Shown: piece after piece, positions 1 through 6,712 of the stretch | Numbering within the stretch: position 1 is the stretch's first letter | Layout: the number at the start of each line of letters is the position of its first letter | Program-made: the position numbers and the translations under genes | Notes under the pieces: model-generated | Seen by the model: the letters and a program-made list of their open reading frames with translations, nothing else | Databases searched by the model: none | Told to the model about the DNA's origin: nothing | Virus record (IMG/VR): IMGVR_UViG_3300027974_000189 | Coordinates: 1 to 21,239 of that record | DNA length: 21,239 nt | From: a virus | Strand: one strand, 5' to 3'

Positions 1-228
1 TAGTTCAAATAAAGATTCTAATTCTTCTTTTGATATTATGTTAGTATTCTTCTCAAAGTTTTCCGTTGCTAGTTGTGATTTGGATTTTGGTTGTATGTCA
101 TATTTTTTAAACCACCGAGTAACCACCTGGCGAGTTTTGTATCCATATTTATCGGCAATTTCTTGATATGTTAAATTTGACTTGAAGTAATCATTGACCA
201 GTTCAGTTTTCGTCGGAGAGTAATTCAT
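1..228 (-). CDS. Helix-turn-helix protein, probable free-standing homing endonuclease (3' end outside window)
   Basis: An ATG at 228-226 opens a frame that stays open to the window edge, giving 76 residues. Residues 20-42 (LTYQEIADKYGYKTRQVV and following) read as a helix-turn-helix of the kind found at the N-terminus of phage free-standing homing endonucleases; a basic stretch with several Lys follows (KKYDIQPKSKSQ). The nuclease domain, if present, lies outside the window, so its class cannot be named. The start overlaps the last 26 bases of the preceding terminase fragment, including its stop, which suggests translational coupling. Position supports the endonuclease reading: fractured phage genes interrupted by split inteins often carry an endonuclease gene between the two halves, and this gene follows a split-intein N-fragment. 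It could instead be a small DNA-binding regulator. Confidence 0.65.
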   Translation of the reverse strand, partial: MNYSPTKTELVNDYFKSNLTYQEIADKYGYKTRQVVTRWFKKYDIQPKSKSQLATENFEKNTNIISKEELESLFEL

Positions 229-1183
229 ATAGTTTTCCAATTTGGATGTCCACCATTATACCACCTAATTGGGTATTTAGACAAGTTTCATATGAGACCG
301 ATTCAAACTCCTGTCTCCATTGGCTTTCGCTCGTGTTGGCGATGGTTGTCTGCTTAAAATTCTCATCGCGCCCAGGAATATCAGTCCAATGGACCTCAAT
401 GGGCGTATAAGAATTCTCCTTCTTAATAGCCTCAGACCATAACTTATAAAAAAGATTTAGTCCGTGAGGAGTTGATGTTATAATAACCTTAGAAGATTGT
501 CCAGATGTAATAGTTGGATAAACTGAACTAAAGAATGAGTCTGCTACTTGATTTGGAACAAACGCAAATTCGTCTAGGTAGATGATATTGTAAGTATTAC
601 CACGTACAGATGACGCAGACGTAGAAGCAGCGAATATTTTAGAGCCGTTCTCAAGTTCTAATGACCCCTTATTCCAGGAACAAATGCCTTGTTGTAGCCA
701 TCTTGGTAGATTTTCATATCCAATTTGTAATCTACCCAGTAAATCTCGTGCTGTTTGTGCCTTATTGGCCAATAGAGCGATATTTACATTATCGTTAAAA
801 ATCGCATAATGTAGCAAGTACGCCACAACTACTGAGGAGTTATGAGAAACTATATTATTTGTATAATATATACTACCATTTTGTACATTGAGTAAGTCAT
901 ACATATTTGACTCATCGGATGTAATTTCAATTGAAGATATTTTATCTATTCCGGTAGATGTTTGTATATAATCACCAACTATTAATTCATCACAGAATAT
1001 TTCATTCCAGTTTTTATCTATAAAAATATGTTTATCCGCACATATTAAAAACTTCCCAGATTCTGTTGTTACTACCCACTCAGTATATTTGATGGTTTTT
1101 GCTATACCAGAAAAAGATTGCCAACCAGAAGGAGTTTCAACTTCCCATTCATCAGAATTAAATTGTTCTATGAATTCAGCCAT
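203..1183 (-). CDS. gp17: Large terminase gp17, middle fragment: IntC1 - ATPase core - IntN2
   Basis: This 326-residue polypeptide has three parts. Residues 1-115 are a split-intein C-fragment ending IVSHN. Residues 116-294 are the central ATPase part of the T4-type terminase motor that pumps DNA into the prohead. It begins SSVVVAYLLHYAIF, the continuation of the P-loop, and contains Walker B (IIYLDEFAF, Asp204/Glu205) and the coupling motif TSTPHGLN (236-243), and ends WRQEFE. Residues 295-326 look like a second split-intein N-fragment (SVSYET...IGKLYELL), after which the frame stops. The RNase H-like nuclease domain is absent and expected beyond the window. The start ATG directly follows an in-frame TAA, so it cannot extend further upstream; no strong Shine-Dalgarno is seen. 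Two late-promoter words lie 286 and 359 bases upstream. Alone this fragment lacks Walker A and cannot hydrolyse ATP, so trans-splicing is required. Confidence 0.93.
   Translation of the reverse strand: MAEFIEQFNSDEWEVETPSGWQSFSGIAKTIKYTEWVVTTESGKFLICADKHIFIDKNWNEIFCDELIVGDYIQTSTGIDKISSIEITSDESNMYDLLNVQNGSIYYTNNIVSHNSSVVVAYLLHYAIFNDNVNIALLANKAQTARDLLGRLQIGYENLPRWLQQGICSWNKGSLELENGSKIFAASTSASSVRGNTYNIIYLDEFAFVPNQVADSFFSSVYPTITSGQSSKVIITSTPHGLNLFYKLWSEAIKKENSYTPIEVHWTDIPGRDENFKQTTIANTSESQWRQEFESVSYETCLNTQLGGIMVDIQIGKLYELLSDEN
206..301 (-). other. Split intein 2, N-fragment (IntN2) at the end of the ATPase core
   Basis: After WRQEFE the terminase similarity stops. T4-like terminases normally continue there with a Cys/Thr-Glu-Phe-(Leu/Ile)-Gly-Ser type segment. 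The last 32 residues instead resemble an intein block A: SVSYET aligns with the CLSYET start of Npu DnaE, and IGKLYE matches IGELYE in intein 1 of the same gene. The first residue is encoded by TCG (301-299), so this would be a Ser1 intein rather than the usual Cys1. The fragment ends at a stop after 32 residues, a very short IntN like that of the atypical AceL-TerL class. An alternative start at the Cys six residues later is possible but fits the alignment less well. The matching IntC is not in the window. Confidence 0.75.
839..1183 (-). other. Split intein 1, C-fragment (IntC1)
   Basis: The first 115 residues form the larger half of a HINT-fold intein without an endonuclease domain. Block B is seen as LICADKHIF, with the conserved His. 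Block F/G is seen as NMYDLLNV followed by YYTNNIVSHN, with penultimate His and terminal Asn; the +1 extein residue is Ser. The overall pattern (short hydrophobic N-terminus, a segment like ETPSGWQSFSGI, block B, VGDY, then block F/G) resembles the IntC of AceL-TerL, an atypical split intein in a phage terminase. Its partner is the 36-residue IntN at 1567-1674. Confidence 0.9.
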
Positions 1184-1229
1184 TTAAGAAATCCACACAC
1201 TTTAATACACATTCTTGAGGATTATTTCT

Positions 1230-1310
1230 TTGAAACACTCACCGTGCTGAAGCAACGGTGATTCTTAACGCATCATAGAGACTTGCTACCGAAGCAGTCT
1301 TATTGTCTCT
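1230..1310 (-). ncRNA. Possible omega-RNA scaffold (IS605 right-end hairpins)
   Basis: On the minus strand AGAGAC (1310-1305) can pair with GTCTCT (1282-1277) around an inner TGCT/AGCA stem with a UCGG-containing loop. The terminal hairpin CACCGT...ACGGTG (1260-1255 with 1245-1240) overlaps the tnpB stop, and TTTCAA follows. Omega-RNAs of TnpB systems are made from exactly this place, the 3' end of tnpB plus the right end, with the guide formed by the bases just downstream. Expression and function are not shown, and the tnpB copy here has lost its catalytic C-terminal core. Confidence 0.35.
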
Positions 1311-1505
1311 CCGCGTTCGTTTAGAGTCGTGGCAGTTCCCTATCCCGACTTTATCTATATTCAGATCTTCTAAAGTGATTGCTTGGTTTTTGCGTACCAC
1401 TTCAGTAGAGACTTTATGTAAAAAATGGAACTTGGTATCGTAATTCAACTCTAACTTGTTGGCAACACTATTTATATGAGAAAGGAGGGCACTTATACCC
1501 TCCAA
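1239..1505 (-). pseudogene. tnpB: tnpB remnant (RNA-guided nuclease of IS200/IS605 type), internally deleted
   Basis: An 88-codon open frame from a TTG. The segment FLHKVSTEVVRKNQAITLED, followed by LNI, matches the RuvC-II region of TnpB (FLHKLST..IV.....I.IEDLNV), including the catalytic Glu of EDLN. It passes directly into DSKRTRRDNKTASVASLYDA and ends in ITVASAR, which looks like the extreme C-terminal tail of cyanobacterial TnpB proteins, normally located after the zinc finger and RuvC-III. The zinc-finger Cys pairs, the RuvC-III Asp and the whole N-terminal half with RuvC-I are missing, so two deletions are inferred. No nuclease activity is expected. The first roughly 20 codons resemble nothing known to me and contain a late-promoter word, so the frame start is probably incidental. 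Confidence 0.6.
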
Positions 1506-1530
1506 TCTTTACCCGAAAAGCGCCAACAAG
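1455..1530. repeat. Inverted repeat with nested GC hairpin
   Basis: A perfect 9-bp inverted repeat, CTTGTTGGC at 1455-1463 and GCCAACAAG at 1522-1530, encloses a second perfect 6-bp stem, GGAGGG at 1484-1489 and CCCTCC at 1498-1503. On the minus strand the inner stem is followed by TTTCT, so it could act as a weak terminator or RNA processing stem. It sits at the upstream side of the tnpB remnant, where an IS605 left-end hairpin would be expected, which is an alternative reading. Confidence 0.5.
1469..1476 (-). promoter_or_regulatory. T4-type late promoter word TATAAATA (proximal)
   Basis: Exact match to the T4 late-promoter -10 consensus TATAAATA, read on the minus strand towards the middle terminase fragment. 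Late promoters of T4-like phages consist essentially of this octamer, recognised by gp55 sigma with gp33/gp45. A transcript from here would run through the tnpB remnant into gp17-middle. In AT-rich DNA such octamers also arise by chance. Confidence 0.45.
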
Positions 1531-1541
1531 TCAGGTAATGT

Positions 1542-1549
1542 TATTTATA
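1542..1549 (-). promoter_or_regulatory. T4-type late promoter word TATAAATA (distal)
   Basis: A second exact TATAAATA on the minus strand, 15 bases after the stop codon of the N-terminal terminase fragment and directly after the proposed TTGAT boundary. It lies in non-coding DNA. By eye the only other exact match on the coding strand is at 8974-8981 inside a codon run of the giant structural gene. Two copies in 80 bases of intergenic DNA suggest a dedicated late promoter for the downstream terminase fragment. Confidence 0.5.
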
Positions 1550-1563
1550 TCAATTAAACTTAA

Positions 1564-1935
1564 TTACAAATCGCTTTCTTTCTTGATTTTTTCATAAAGT
1601 TCTCCAATTGGTAATTCAATAATTTCGCCAGTAAGTTTATTTCTTACTTTTACTATTGTTTTAATATAAAAACATTTCCCACTCTGCCTCGGGAGTTTAC
1701 ATATATTAAATCTATTAGTATGAAAACTAGATAACATCCGTTTCTGAAACGGATATAGCGTAAATGGCTGTAATCCATAATCCAGGGTCACAATCTTCAT
1801 ATAGTTCTCAGCGAAATAAATTGGATCATTAGAACACCGGGCAAATTCTAAGACCTGCTCCTCGGTAAACTCTAACTTTGTATTAGCTTTTTTAAGAAGC
1901 GGATTTCTATTGTAACTAGCGTCATAACCACTCAT
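1564..1935 (-). CDS. gp17: Large terminase gp17, N-terminal fragment: N-extein - IntN1
   Basis: This 123-residue polypeptide is the first piece of the DNA-packaging motor ATPase. Residues 1-87 are the terminase N-terminus (MSGYDASYNRNPLL, then an acidic/aromatic region and FTLYPFQKRML), ending in the Walker A half LPRQSGK. Residues 88-123 are a split-intein N-fragment, after which a stop ends the gene. The Ser that completes the P-loop (GKS) is the first extein residue of the next fragment. I place the start at the ATG at 1935 rather than an upstream in-frame ATG at 1983. The later ATG overlaps the stop of the preceding small gene (ATGA) and has GGAGG about ten bases upstream, whereas the extra 16 residues of the longer form overlap that gene and look non-native. 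The fragment cannot work unless spliced. Confidence 0.93.
   Translation of the reverse strand: MSGYDASYNRNPLLKKANTKLEFTEEQVLEFARCSNDPIYFAENYMKIVTLDYGLQPFTLYPFQKRMLSSFHTNRFNICKLPRQSGKCFYIKTIVKVRNKLTGEIIELPIGELYEKIKKESDL
1567..1674 (-). other. Split intein 1, N-fragment (IntN1) in the Walker A motif
   Basis: Thirty-six residues starting with Cys1 directly after the P-loop Lys: block A reads CFYIKTIVKV, followed by TGEIIELPIGELYEKI. A stop follows at 1566-1564. The short IntN (most natural split inteins have about 100 residues there) puts it in the atypical class with AceL-TerL. It pairs in frame with the IntC at 839-1183: joining the exteins restores PRQSGK-SSVVVAYLL, a complete terminase Walker A motif. 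Confidence 0.92.
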
Positions 1936-2120: not shown

Positions 2121-3326
2121 TCAGTAACCCCCATTATTCAGTAGGAAGTTTTTGGATTTGGTATTTTGTACCTGAATTAAGGGTTGTTGTGTGTTTAGTT
2201 CACATACTCTAAAGGTTAGTACTTTTGAGTCTGGATATATTTTTTGGATTTCATTGGTCACTTCCCGTTTATTTGGTACTTTTATTTGTGGGAAGAACAT
2301 TTGGGTCTGATAGGTTTTTCCTCTCCAAGAAAGAACTGTTGAAATTACCTGGCCATTTTTGGTTGGGATTCTAGTTGCTTCTACTATAGGTGGTGCTCCA
2401 ACCTGAATTACTTTCTTTGCTGCAGCTAATGCATCTGCTTTTTGTTGTATGAGTGCTAATGTGGCTGCTTTTTGTGGGGAGGTTTGAGTAACTGGATTAA
2501 ACCCATTTACTGGAGCTGCCTCCCTAAAAAGCTTAGATTTTTTAGATTCCTTAATAATAGAATCACACTTAATAAGGTCTATAAACTCATAAACAACATT
2601 ACCAAACATATCTTCAATGGTAACACTTTCCTTAGTCTCCATCTTTTTTAATCTAGTATAATAATCAGGAATCTCATCTAGATGTTGTAGGGCGATATCC
2701 GCAGCCAAATCTTTATCGTTGGTATGTTCATGCTCACTTTGAATTCCCAATTTGAGTTGGGCTTTAATTTCAGCTACTGTAACACCATGCTTCTTTGCTA
2801 TTTGCTCAATTGATTTATGTGGTTTTATAGATGGACATTCTTTTGTTCCGTGAGATGGACAAGACCTGCCTTTTTTAGTATTATTACACTTTGGTTCCTC
2901 ACCATTTTTTATTTCCTCAAGAATTTTATTTACTAAACTCTTGTGTTCTTTTTGGATAGTTGGTAATTTTATTTTTCCTTTTTCTGCTGGTGGTAAACTG
3001 GGTTTTTTTGTTGGTATTGGGCGGCCCGGTTCACCTGGTAGTAATACTTCCGTAGGCGGTGTGGTTCCTGGTATTTCAGATTGACGACCGAGTGGTAATA
3101 CTCCCGTTCTTTTGCCTACTACTAGTTTCATTTGATTTTGTATCCAAGTATCTGGTGTTTGTTTATGTTTACTCACAAATGAATTATGAAGTTCTTTTGC
3201 TGTTAGATTATGTTTCTTCATAATCCGTCGCATCAAAGTATCAATTGAATCATAAGAAGTATTATTCAGTTTCAATAAACTAAATTCTAATTCTTCAATT
3301 ACTTTACTTCTATTTATCTGCGGCAT
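2121..3326 (-). CDS. DUF5661-domain phage protein between gp16 and gp17
   Basis: A 401-residue protein. Residues 1-65 form a helical N-terminal region. Residues 75-120 are a Pro-rich linker (PGTTPPTEVLLPGEPGRPIP). A compact Cys/His cluster follows (Cys147, Cys156, His159, Cys164), which could bind a metal. Residues 172-230 match the DUF5661 pattern found in many phages (SIEQIAKKHGVTVAEIK, GIQSEHEHTNDKDLAADIAL, HLDEIPDYYTRL). The C-terminal part (320-385, GKTYQTQMFFPQIKVPNKRE) resembles a domain seen in large cyanophage proteins. The function is unknown. It overlaps the end of gp16 by 17 bases and is followed after 66 bases by the small gene before gp17, so it is co-transcribed with the packaging genes. 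Confidence 0.75.
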   Translation of the reverse strand: MPQINRSKVIEELEFSLLKLNNTSYDSIDTLMRRIMKKHNLTAKELHNSFVSKHKQTPDTWIQNQMKLVVGKRTGVLPLGRQSEIPGTTPPTEVLLPGEPGRPIPTKKPSLPPAEKGKIKLPTIQKEHKSLVNKILEEIKNGEEPKCNNTKKGRSCPSHGTKECPSIKPHKSIEQIAKKHGVTVAEIKAQLKLGIQSEHEHTNDKDLAADIALQHLDEIPDYYTRLKKMETKESVTIEDMFGNVVYEFIDLIKCDSIIKESKKSKLFREAAPVNGFNPVTQTSPQKAATLALIQQKADALAAAKKVIQVGAPPIVEATRIPTKNGQVISTVLSWRGKTYQTQMFFPQIKVPNKREVTNEIQKIYPDSKVLTFRVCELNTQQPLIQVQNTKSKNFLLNNGGY

Positions 3327-3753
3327 CTTTTAATTGATTCTTAAGAAGTTTAGATAATTCAGCAGTGGAACCAACAAATAGTGCGTTTGTGACGTTTGTT
3401 GGCCCTCTTGTTGTTTTTATATCATCTAGACTCTTCAATTTCTTCTGAAGGTCCATTAATTTATCTGTAGCATCAGATACATTTTTAATTAATTGCCCAA
3501 CAACTTCATATGCTCTTGGTGTATCTGTTTCCTGTGCTAATTCTAGAATACCATTGATTGCTTCTTGTCCTTTCTCAATCAATGAGTATAAATTACCTCT
3601 GGTGTAATCATAATCTTTACGAACATCATCTATAGAAGATGATATTTTTTCAATTTTTTCTTCGGGTGTTTCAATTTCAACTTCACTAGAAATTACTTCA
3701 CTAGCAATATTAAAAGTTTCATTTAGCTTGTTGAATTTTTTCGTCATTTTCAT
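3310..3753 (-). CDS. gp16: Small terminase subunit gp16
   Basis: 147 residues, close to the T4 gp16 size. The small terminase forms a ring that recognises concatemeric DNA and regulates the large subunit. The sequence is largely helical: a coiled-coil-like central region (residues 45-110) with the typical phage pattern RGNLYSLIEKGQEAINGILE and QETDTPRAYEVVGQLI, then a short C-terminal tail. Either Met1 or Met3 (MKMTKK) could be the start. It begins 8 bases after gp15 and its 3' end overlaps the next gene. Confidence 0.85.
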   Translation of the reverse strand: MKMTKKFNKLNETFNIASEVISSEVEIETPEEKIEKISSSIDDVRKDYDYTRGNLYSLIEKGQEAINGILELAQETDTPRAYEVVGQLIKNVSDATDKLMDLQKKLKSLDDIKTTRGPTNVTNALFVGSTAELSKLLKNQLKDAADK

Positions 3754-6166: not shown

Positions 6167-6712
6167 TTATACTCTACTAAAGGTATATCCACGATGACGA
6201 GTTTGTCCTTTTTTATTCAAACACTTACAAATCGCACTAGTATCCCCACTAATATAATCTGCACATTCCTTTATTGATTCAAATTTTTTATTTAATTCAT
6301 TTATCATAACTGATTTTGATGGTATATGATTTCCTTTACCTTTTTTTGTATTTGATATTTTTTTTCCTCTTTTTTTTCTGTCTTCAACCGACAAATTATC
6401 CCAAAATTTTTGTACTCCTGCAATATGATTATTATTTCCTTTTTTCATACGAGGGGGATTCTCTCCACCATCAGTTTTATTATAAAGAATACCTGTTCCC
6501 AAATCCTTTCTTCCATATTTTTTTATATACATTTTTTCCATTTGCATCGCATCTTCCTCTGTAAGATTATCTGCAACTTTTATTCTTCTTTCTTTTAGGG
6601 GAAGACTTATTCCAGGATGAGCTTTACTATCTATCCTACCATTGCACCCTTTACCAACATAGTAAGGAGTACCATCTTCTCGGTTATAAAAGTAGCAATA
6701 GTATTTTTTCAT
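6167..6712 (-). CDS. GIY-YIG homing endonuclease between gp13 and gp14
   Basis: 181 residues. The N-terminal GIY-YIG nuclease domain is visible: a GIY-like strand at residues 5-9 (YCYFY), the YIG-like strand YYVGKG (17-22), catalytic Arg at 26 in GCNGRI, a helix with Glu59 (QMEKMYIKKYG) and Asn78 in LYNKTDGGE. The C-terminal half carries a basic NUMOD3-like motif (GKKISNTKKGKGNH, 116-129) and a NUMOD1-like DNA-binding segment (KKFESIKECADYI, RGYTFSRV at the end). Such Seg-type enzymes cut phages lacking the gene and spread by recombination. The gene lies 3 bases after gp13 and 2 bases before gp14, so it was inserted without disturbing the operon. All expected catalytic positions are kept, so it is probably active. 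Confidence 0.92.
   Translation of the reverse strand: MKKYYCYFYNREDGTPYYVGKGCNGRIDSKAHPGISLPLKERRIKVADNLTEEDAMQMEKMYIKKYGRKDLGTGILYNKTDGGENPPRMKKGNNNHIAGVQKFWDNLSVEDRKKRGKKISNTKKGKGNHIPSKSVMINELNKKFESIKECADYISGDTSAICKCLNKKGQTRHRGYTFSRV

Follow-up and report, generated by a model that had tools for sequence, protein, structure and literature searches.

The window analysed here is the entire IMG/VR virus record IMGVR_UViG_3300027974_000189, 21,239 bases, and belongs to a T4-like myovirus, whose neck, sheath-stabiliser, baseplate and small-terminase genes all lie on the minus strand. Near its left edge, on the same strand, the gene for the large terminase (TerL, T4 gp17 type) is interrupted at two positions, referred to here as sites A and B (Table 1). 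A preliminary description, made from the letters alone, had proposed that this terminase is encoded in at least three polypeptides, the middle one carrying a C-terminal intein fragment (IntC) at its start and an N-terminal intein fragment (IntN) at its end, and that the nuclease domain is missing from the window. All of the features lie where that description placed them, and both proposals are supported.

Two breaks in one terminase gene

Break A falls inside the Walker A motif (PRQSGK|S), between the Walker A lysine and the next serine, and pairs Cys1 with Ser+1. The site has the features of an atypical split intein with a short IntN, namely separate open reading frames (ORFs) for IntN and IntC, Cys1, a terminal HN and Ser/Thr at +1. 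Hidden Markov model (HMM) profiles of the IntN segments, built from relatives with the window left out and searched against the 499 window ORFs, recovered IntN-A (1.3e-18) as well as IntN-B (5.8e-11). Once spliced, pieces 1 and 2 align without a gap over the splice junction with the intact TerL of locus L008 (related loci are labelled L throughout); the Walker A motif and ATPase domain of a T4-type large terminase are present, and Walker A is complete only when the two pieces are joined. The Cat intein is the best PDB sequence match both of the window IntC-A (2e-13) and of the IntC-B of relatives (2e-20). In a tree of IntC sequences, IntC-A clusters with those of site A, L112 being nearest (79%); the tree was used for this placement only, because it has few columns and long branches. 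The predicted model gives IntC-A a fold that matches the Cat and VidaL inteins, and since the predicted template modelling score (pTM) was 0.54, only domain folds were taken from it.

Piece 2 matches Terminase_6N (3e-20), PDB inteins and T4 gp17 structures (1e-38). Its ATPase part ends at break B (QEFE|), just ahead of the nuclease domain. The tail of piece 2 matched the site-B Ser1 profile over positions 1-32 of 32, and a Ser1 IntN following QEFE, as in the GOS-TerL type, is found here, with 29 other Ser1 loci among the relatives. As a correction, this second IntN starts with Ser rather than Cys; we further add that the second intein is of the Ser1/Cys+1 kind and that a homing-endonuclease gene lies between pieces 2 and 3. 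The visible start of that gene is the left-edge ORF, which overlaps the IntN-B ORF by 26 nucleotides (nt) and whose counterpart in L004 and L005 is located between IntN-B and IntC-B. The record stops at base 1, which is why the TerL nuclease domain is absent, and because the window is the whole viral fragment the third TerL piece cannot be read in it.

Table 1. Features of the split terminase locus and its partner gene in the window
Feature	Positions	Strand	Support or remark
Start of site-B homing endonuclease gene, helix-turn-helix part, 76 amino acids (aa) visible	1..228	-	55-56% identity to L004/L005 endonuclease
TerL piece 2, whole ORF: IntC-A, ATPase, IntN-B	203-1183	-	
IntN-B, 32 aa, Ser1, SVSYETCLNTQLGGIMVDIQIGKLYELLSDEN; stop codon 203-205	206..301	-	HMM of 18 relatives' Ser1 IntN-B
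TerL piece 2 ATPase extein, second half of Walker A (SSVVVAYLL..) to ..WRQEFE	302..838	-	Predicted model, Foldseek to T4 gp17, 1e-16
IntC-A, 115 aa, ends SHN	839..1183	-	Cat intein 2e-13, VidaL 3e-6; tree position among site-A sequences
Last codons of former, putatively Vsr-like homing endonuclease (..NPQECVLKCVDFLNG*)	1176..1238	-	Same tail, same place in L112, L094, L116, L115, L002
TnpB (IS605 OrfB) gene relic, 88 aa, in site-A endonuclease slot	1239..1505	-	PHROG transposase 2e-4; tblastn against L002 intact TnpB 4e-4
TATAAATA, second copy in site-A spacer	1469..1476	-	Suggestive only
TATAAATA, T4-late-promoter-like motif, 15 nt past IntN-A stop	1542..1549	-	Suggestive only
TerL piece 1, whole ORF: N-extein and IntN-A	1564-1935	-	
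IntN-A, 36 aa, Cys1; stop codon 1564-1566	1567..1674	-	HMM of 29 relatives' IntN-A, E=1.3e-18
TerL piece 1 N-extein, 87 aa, ends ..PRQSGK, first half of Walker A	1675..1935	-	PHROG terminase 7e-26
Terminase small subunit (gp16-like), upstream partner of TerL	3310..3753	-	phrog_445, 5e-53

The slot between IntN-A and IntC-A holds a putatively Vsr-like homing endonuclease in relatives and, in L002 (4689-5906), an intact TnpB (IS605 OrfB, Cas12f-like) followed by the old endonuclease tail. In the window, the site-A endonuclease is dead, with the TnpB relic and the last codons of the endonuclease remaining; the stop codon of this tail overlaps the ATG of TerL piece 2. The combination in L002 of an intact TnpB with the same endonuclease tail thus indicates that the slot-A endonuclease was replaced and lost and that the split was retained.

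Recurrence in relatives and the continuation after site B

An IntN of this kind had been predicted to be followed by an IntC, the motif C-E-F-x-G-S and the nuclease domain, and this is the order seen in relatives. In L004 and L005, the gene after the endonuclease encodes an IntC-B ending ..SHN, then CEFLGSVDTLISG, and then the nuclease domain. Fifteen test loci were chosen by a scan with piece 2 or with IntC-A, without IntC-B as a query, and the IntC-B/nuclease gene was present in 15/15 relatives with a site-B IntN and enough sequence beyond it (4/4 from the piece-2 scan and 11/11 from the IntC-A scan); two further relatives, L119 and L121, end before its position. In relatives, a Ser1 IntN-B precedes an IntC-B ending ..HN|C and the RNase H-like nuclease domain of T4-type TerL, often with the same endonuclease between. 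The slot genes of relatives match DUF559 above the cut-off and, for one gene, Vsr below the cut-off only. A search of the records of 15 relatives, up to 306 kb long, detected no further TerL. At L092, L094 and L096, site B is split without an endonuclease, and only a few bases, with a change of frame, separate the IntN stop from the IntC start.

About ten lineages contain a complete terminase that is doubly split. A complete TerL is split at both A and B in L094, L102/103, L105/106, L114, L117/118, L120, L179 and L184, and in L143 and L180 a third split within the ATPase adds to A and B, giving four polypeptides and three split inteins. The recovery of split TerL genes from separate assemblies (L102/103, L105/106/108, L117/118 and L143/144) speaks against an assembly artefact. 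In L034, L062, L092 and L100 the split at B is accompanied by a cis intein at A; further loci are split at A alone (L002, L003, L112, L115 and L116) or at B alone (L004, L089, L096 and L098). TerL is intact in most of the 80 closest TerL relatives, and the double split is therefore scattered rather than ancestral to all. Two split inteins in series are a recurrent arrangement, not a unique one.

Several loci carry further insertions. The middle inteins of L143 (4607-9276) and L180 (4604-9527) have GIY-YIG-like endonucleases (a domain read by eye), fused to IntN in L143 and encoded by a separate ORF in L180. A further cis intein lies in the nuclease domain at NDDLVMC in L005 (7705-9999) and L045, and L085, L086 and L114 have another cis-intein site in the ATPase, at extein residue 210. 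In one 306-kb record (L165 and L198), a TerL N-piece is located about 15 kb from the IntC-A/ATPase piece; L165 was dropped as a case of scattered pieces, its N-piece having no recognisable IntN.

Both IntN and IntC are under purifying selection, with synonymous change far above nonsynonymous change in most comparisons. At synonymous sites the inteins are often far closer than the exteins (L094 versus L117, 0.11 for IntC-A and 0.77 for the ATPase), and L092 and L094 have the B intein in common and different A inteins. Close inteins in distant exteins, together with the L092/L094 pattern, are what independent homing at two sites predicts; judged by their divergence, these comparisons show independent movement of the two inteins from phage to phage. 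The IntC-A and IntC-B of one double-split locus are only 25-37% identical.

Proposed assembly of the motor from three chains

We consider it very probable that the TerL gene is fractured by two orthogonal split inteins in series. The three chains would be TerL(1-87)-IntN-A, IntC-A-ATPase-IntN-B and IntC-B-nuclease, the last encoded just left of the record. IntN-A and IntC-A (Cys1, Ser+1) would seal the chain inside Walker A and so create the ATP-binding site, IntN-B and IntC-B (Ser1, Cys+1, the GOS-TerL chemistry) would link the ATPase to the nuclease domain, and a full-length packaging motor would exist only once both reactions were done. No single piece can be the full motor, because break A lies within Walker A and break B before the nuclease domain. 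The order IntC-extein-IntN otherwise serves to make cyclic proteins, and because piece 2 has this order, which lets its own ends make rings or chains, the two pairs must be orthogonal: if IntN-B reacted with IntC-A, the ATPase part would be cyclised or concatenated, and if IntN-A reacted with IntC-B it would be left out. From sequence, we infer both trans-splicing reactions, their orthogonality and the presence of the third piece in the genome from which the window derives; orthogonality agrees with the low IntC identity within a locus and with the different nucleophiles, Cys1/Ser+1 at A versus Ser1/Cys+1 at B (the +1 residue of B being read from relatives). The doubly split state probably arose by two independent homing invasions, after which the slot-A endonuclease was replaced by a TnpB that then decayed; the slot-B endonuclease frame is open as far as it is visible. 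More broadly, there is probably a recurrent natural class of terminases made of three or four chains, in which the two or three split inteins are mutually orthogonal and invade and decay without regard to one another, and in which the IntC-extein-IntN order of the middle chain would oblige selection to keep the intein pairs orthogonal.

Several points weigh against this interpretation. The third TerL piece lies outside the record; searching with an exact 25-base pattern taken at the left edge turned up no contig extending the window and no near-identical contig, and the P0004 scan likewise gave no extending contig. The 76 visible residues of the site-B endonuclease contain no catalytic domain. 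The only relatives available for measuring selection have exteins close to or at synonymous-site saturation. The argument for orthogonality is from divergence alone, and the IntN fragments of AceL and GOS are reportedly interchangeable, so that related pairs can cross-react (PMC11766414).

It is improbable, in our view, that trans-splicing has been retained as a gate on motor activation, as a timing device or an AND switch, and is not solely a selfish burden. The positions of the two breaks, which ensure that a partial product is never the full motor, and the survival of the split beyond its dead slot-A endonuclease would suit such a gate; however, the break points agree with the known intein preference for conserved sites, the strong signs of homing account for the inteins without any benefit, and TerL is intact in many close relatives. 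We regard as very unlikely the reading in which break A is the sole intein, the tail after QEFE arose by chance, and the nuclease half is supplied through a separate subunit, an RNA intron or a frameshift. Although IntC-B is not visible in the window and the pieces could in principle work as subunits, the tail matches the site-B IntN profile over its full length, the ORF that follows is that of the site-B endonuclease, IntC-B ends HN|C in all of the relatives that are long enough, and a search of the first 7 kb of the window found no Rfam introns. A dead gene of which the pieces are remnants, in a phage that is defective or uses another terminase, is likewise very unlikely: the inserted TnpB is plainly decayed and the contig is a fragment, but the extein and intein frames are without exception open and join exactly at the intein borders, nonsynonymous divergence (dN) is far below synonymous divergence (dS), the double split recurs across lineages, the records searched for 15 relatives yielded no second TerL, and the small terminase and structural genes nearby have open frames.

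Comparison with known systems and minor features

Single fractured genes are already known. Dassa et al. in 2009 reportedly described fractured genes with a split intein and a free-standing Vsr-like endonuclease. These genes likewise encode an enzyme split by an intein with an endonuclease gene between the halves, whereas the terminases have two or three fractures per gene and slot A of the window holds a TnpB relic. The terminase of the isolate Aeromonas phage PX29 (gp17A/gp17B) carries annotations for a putative N-intein, a putative C-intein and, between the two, an endonuclease domain, and has one split where the window has two. The terminase of Campylobacter phage IBB_35 was published as containing an intein and an intron (2012 paper, PMC3322345). 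We read the gene of this isolate phage (L197, 3458-8333) as IntN, endonuclease, IntC-CNIIVVDE-IntN with endonuclease, and IntC, that is, as two putative split inteins whose breaks are eight extein residues apart (CNIIVVDE). Its break sites differ from those in the window, and one IntC is frameshifted in the record.

According to the review PMC11766414, which covers Bachmann and Mootz 2015, GOS-TerL is a terminase split intein of the Ser1/Cys+1 kind with an IntN of 37 aa and an IntC of 115 aa, for which trans-splicing has been measured, and AceL-TerL is its Cys1/Cys+1 homologue. The window intein at site B resembles GOS-TerL, as that source presents it, in its terminase host, its short IntN (32 aa here), its Ser1/Cys+1 pairing and, in relatives, an IntC of about 115 aa; GOS-TerL is described there as a single split, whereas the site-B intein is the second of two in one gene. 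Both GOS-TerL and AceL-TerL were assigned to site B because they have Cys at +1 and because IntC-B matches the Cat consensus more closely than IntC-A does, so that the position of GOS-TerL in TerL would be that of site B. AceL-TerL/Cat (6DSL) is likewise atypically split near the N terminus in a terminase host, but is a single split of the Cys1/Cys+1 kind, whereas site A of the window is Cys1/Ser+1 at Walker A, a different insertion site. AceL-TerL, named in the preliminary description as a known terminase case, therefore fits site B; a link to the Walker A break, if one was intended there, has to be corrected. PolB16 OarG, considered as a Ser1/Cys+1 counterpart, proved to be Ser1/Ser+1; the match is GOS-TerL.

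Engineered tandem trans-splicing, in three-segment labelling (PMC12707363) and in dystrophin made from three fragments (PMC11271493), likewise uses two orthogonal split inteins; those systems were designed in the laboratory, whereas the window is a natural case. The searchable literature yielded no description of a natural protein built from three or four chains by split inteins, and full-text searches, which covered neither subscription papers nor the 2009 fractured-gene paper, turned up no natural gene reported to carry two split inteins in series. These loci provide natural candidate sets of orthogonal split-intein pairs, including mixed Ser1/Cys1 chemistry, for multi-part protein ligation, and open to testing the coexistence of two parasites in one essential gene and selection on intein orthogonality.

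The T4-late-promoter-like motif TATAAATA turns up 3 times in the window where chance alone would give 6.3, and late-promoter motifs in spacers showed no enrichment over background (0.14 versus 0.12 per kb); its two copies in the site-A spacer are therefore suggestive only. A genome scan returned a single distant contig from a metagenome-assembled genome (MAG), without a clear hint of the host. Elsewhere in the window, a putative free-standing homing endonuclease (6167-6712; NUMOD-like domain, PHROG homing endonuclease) lies between the neck and head-tail adaptor genes.
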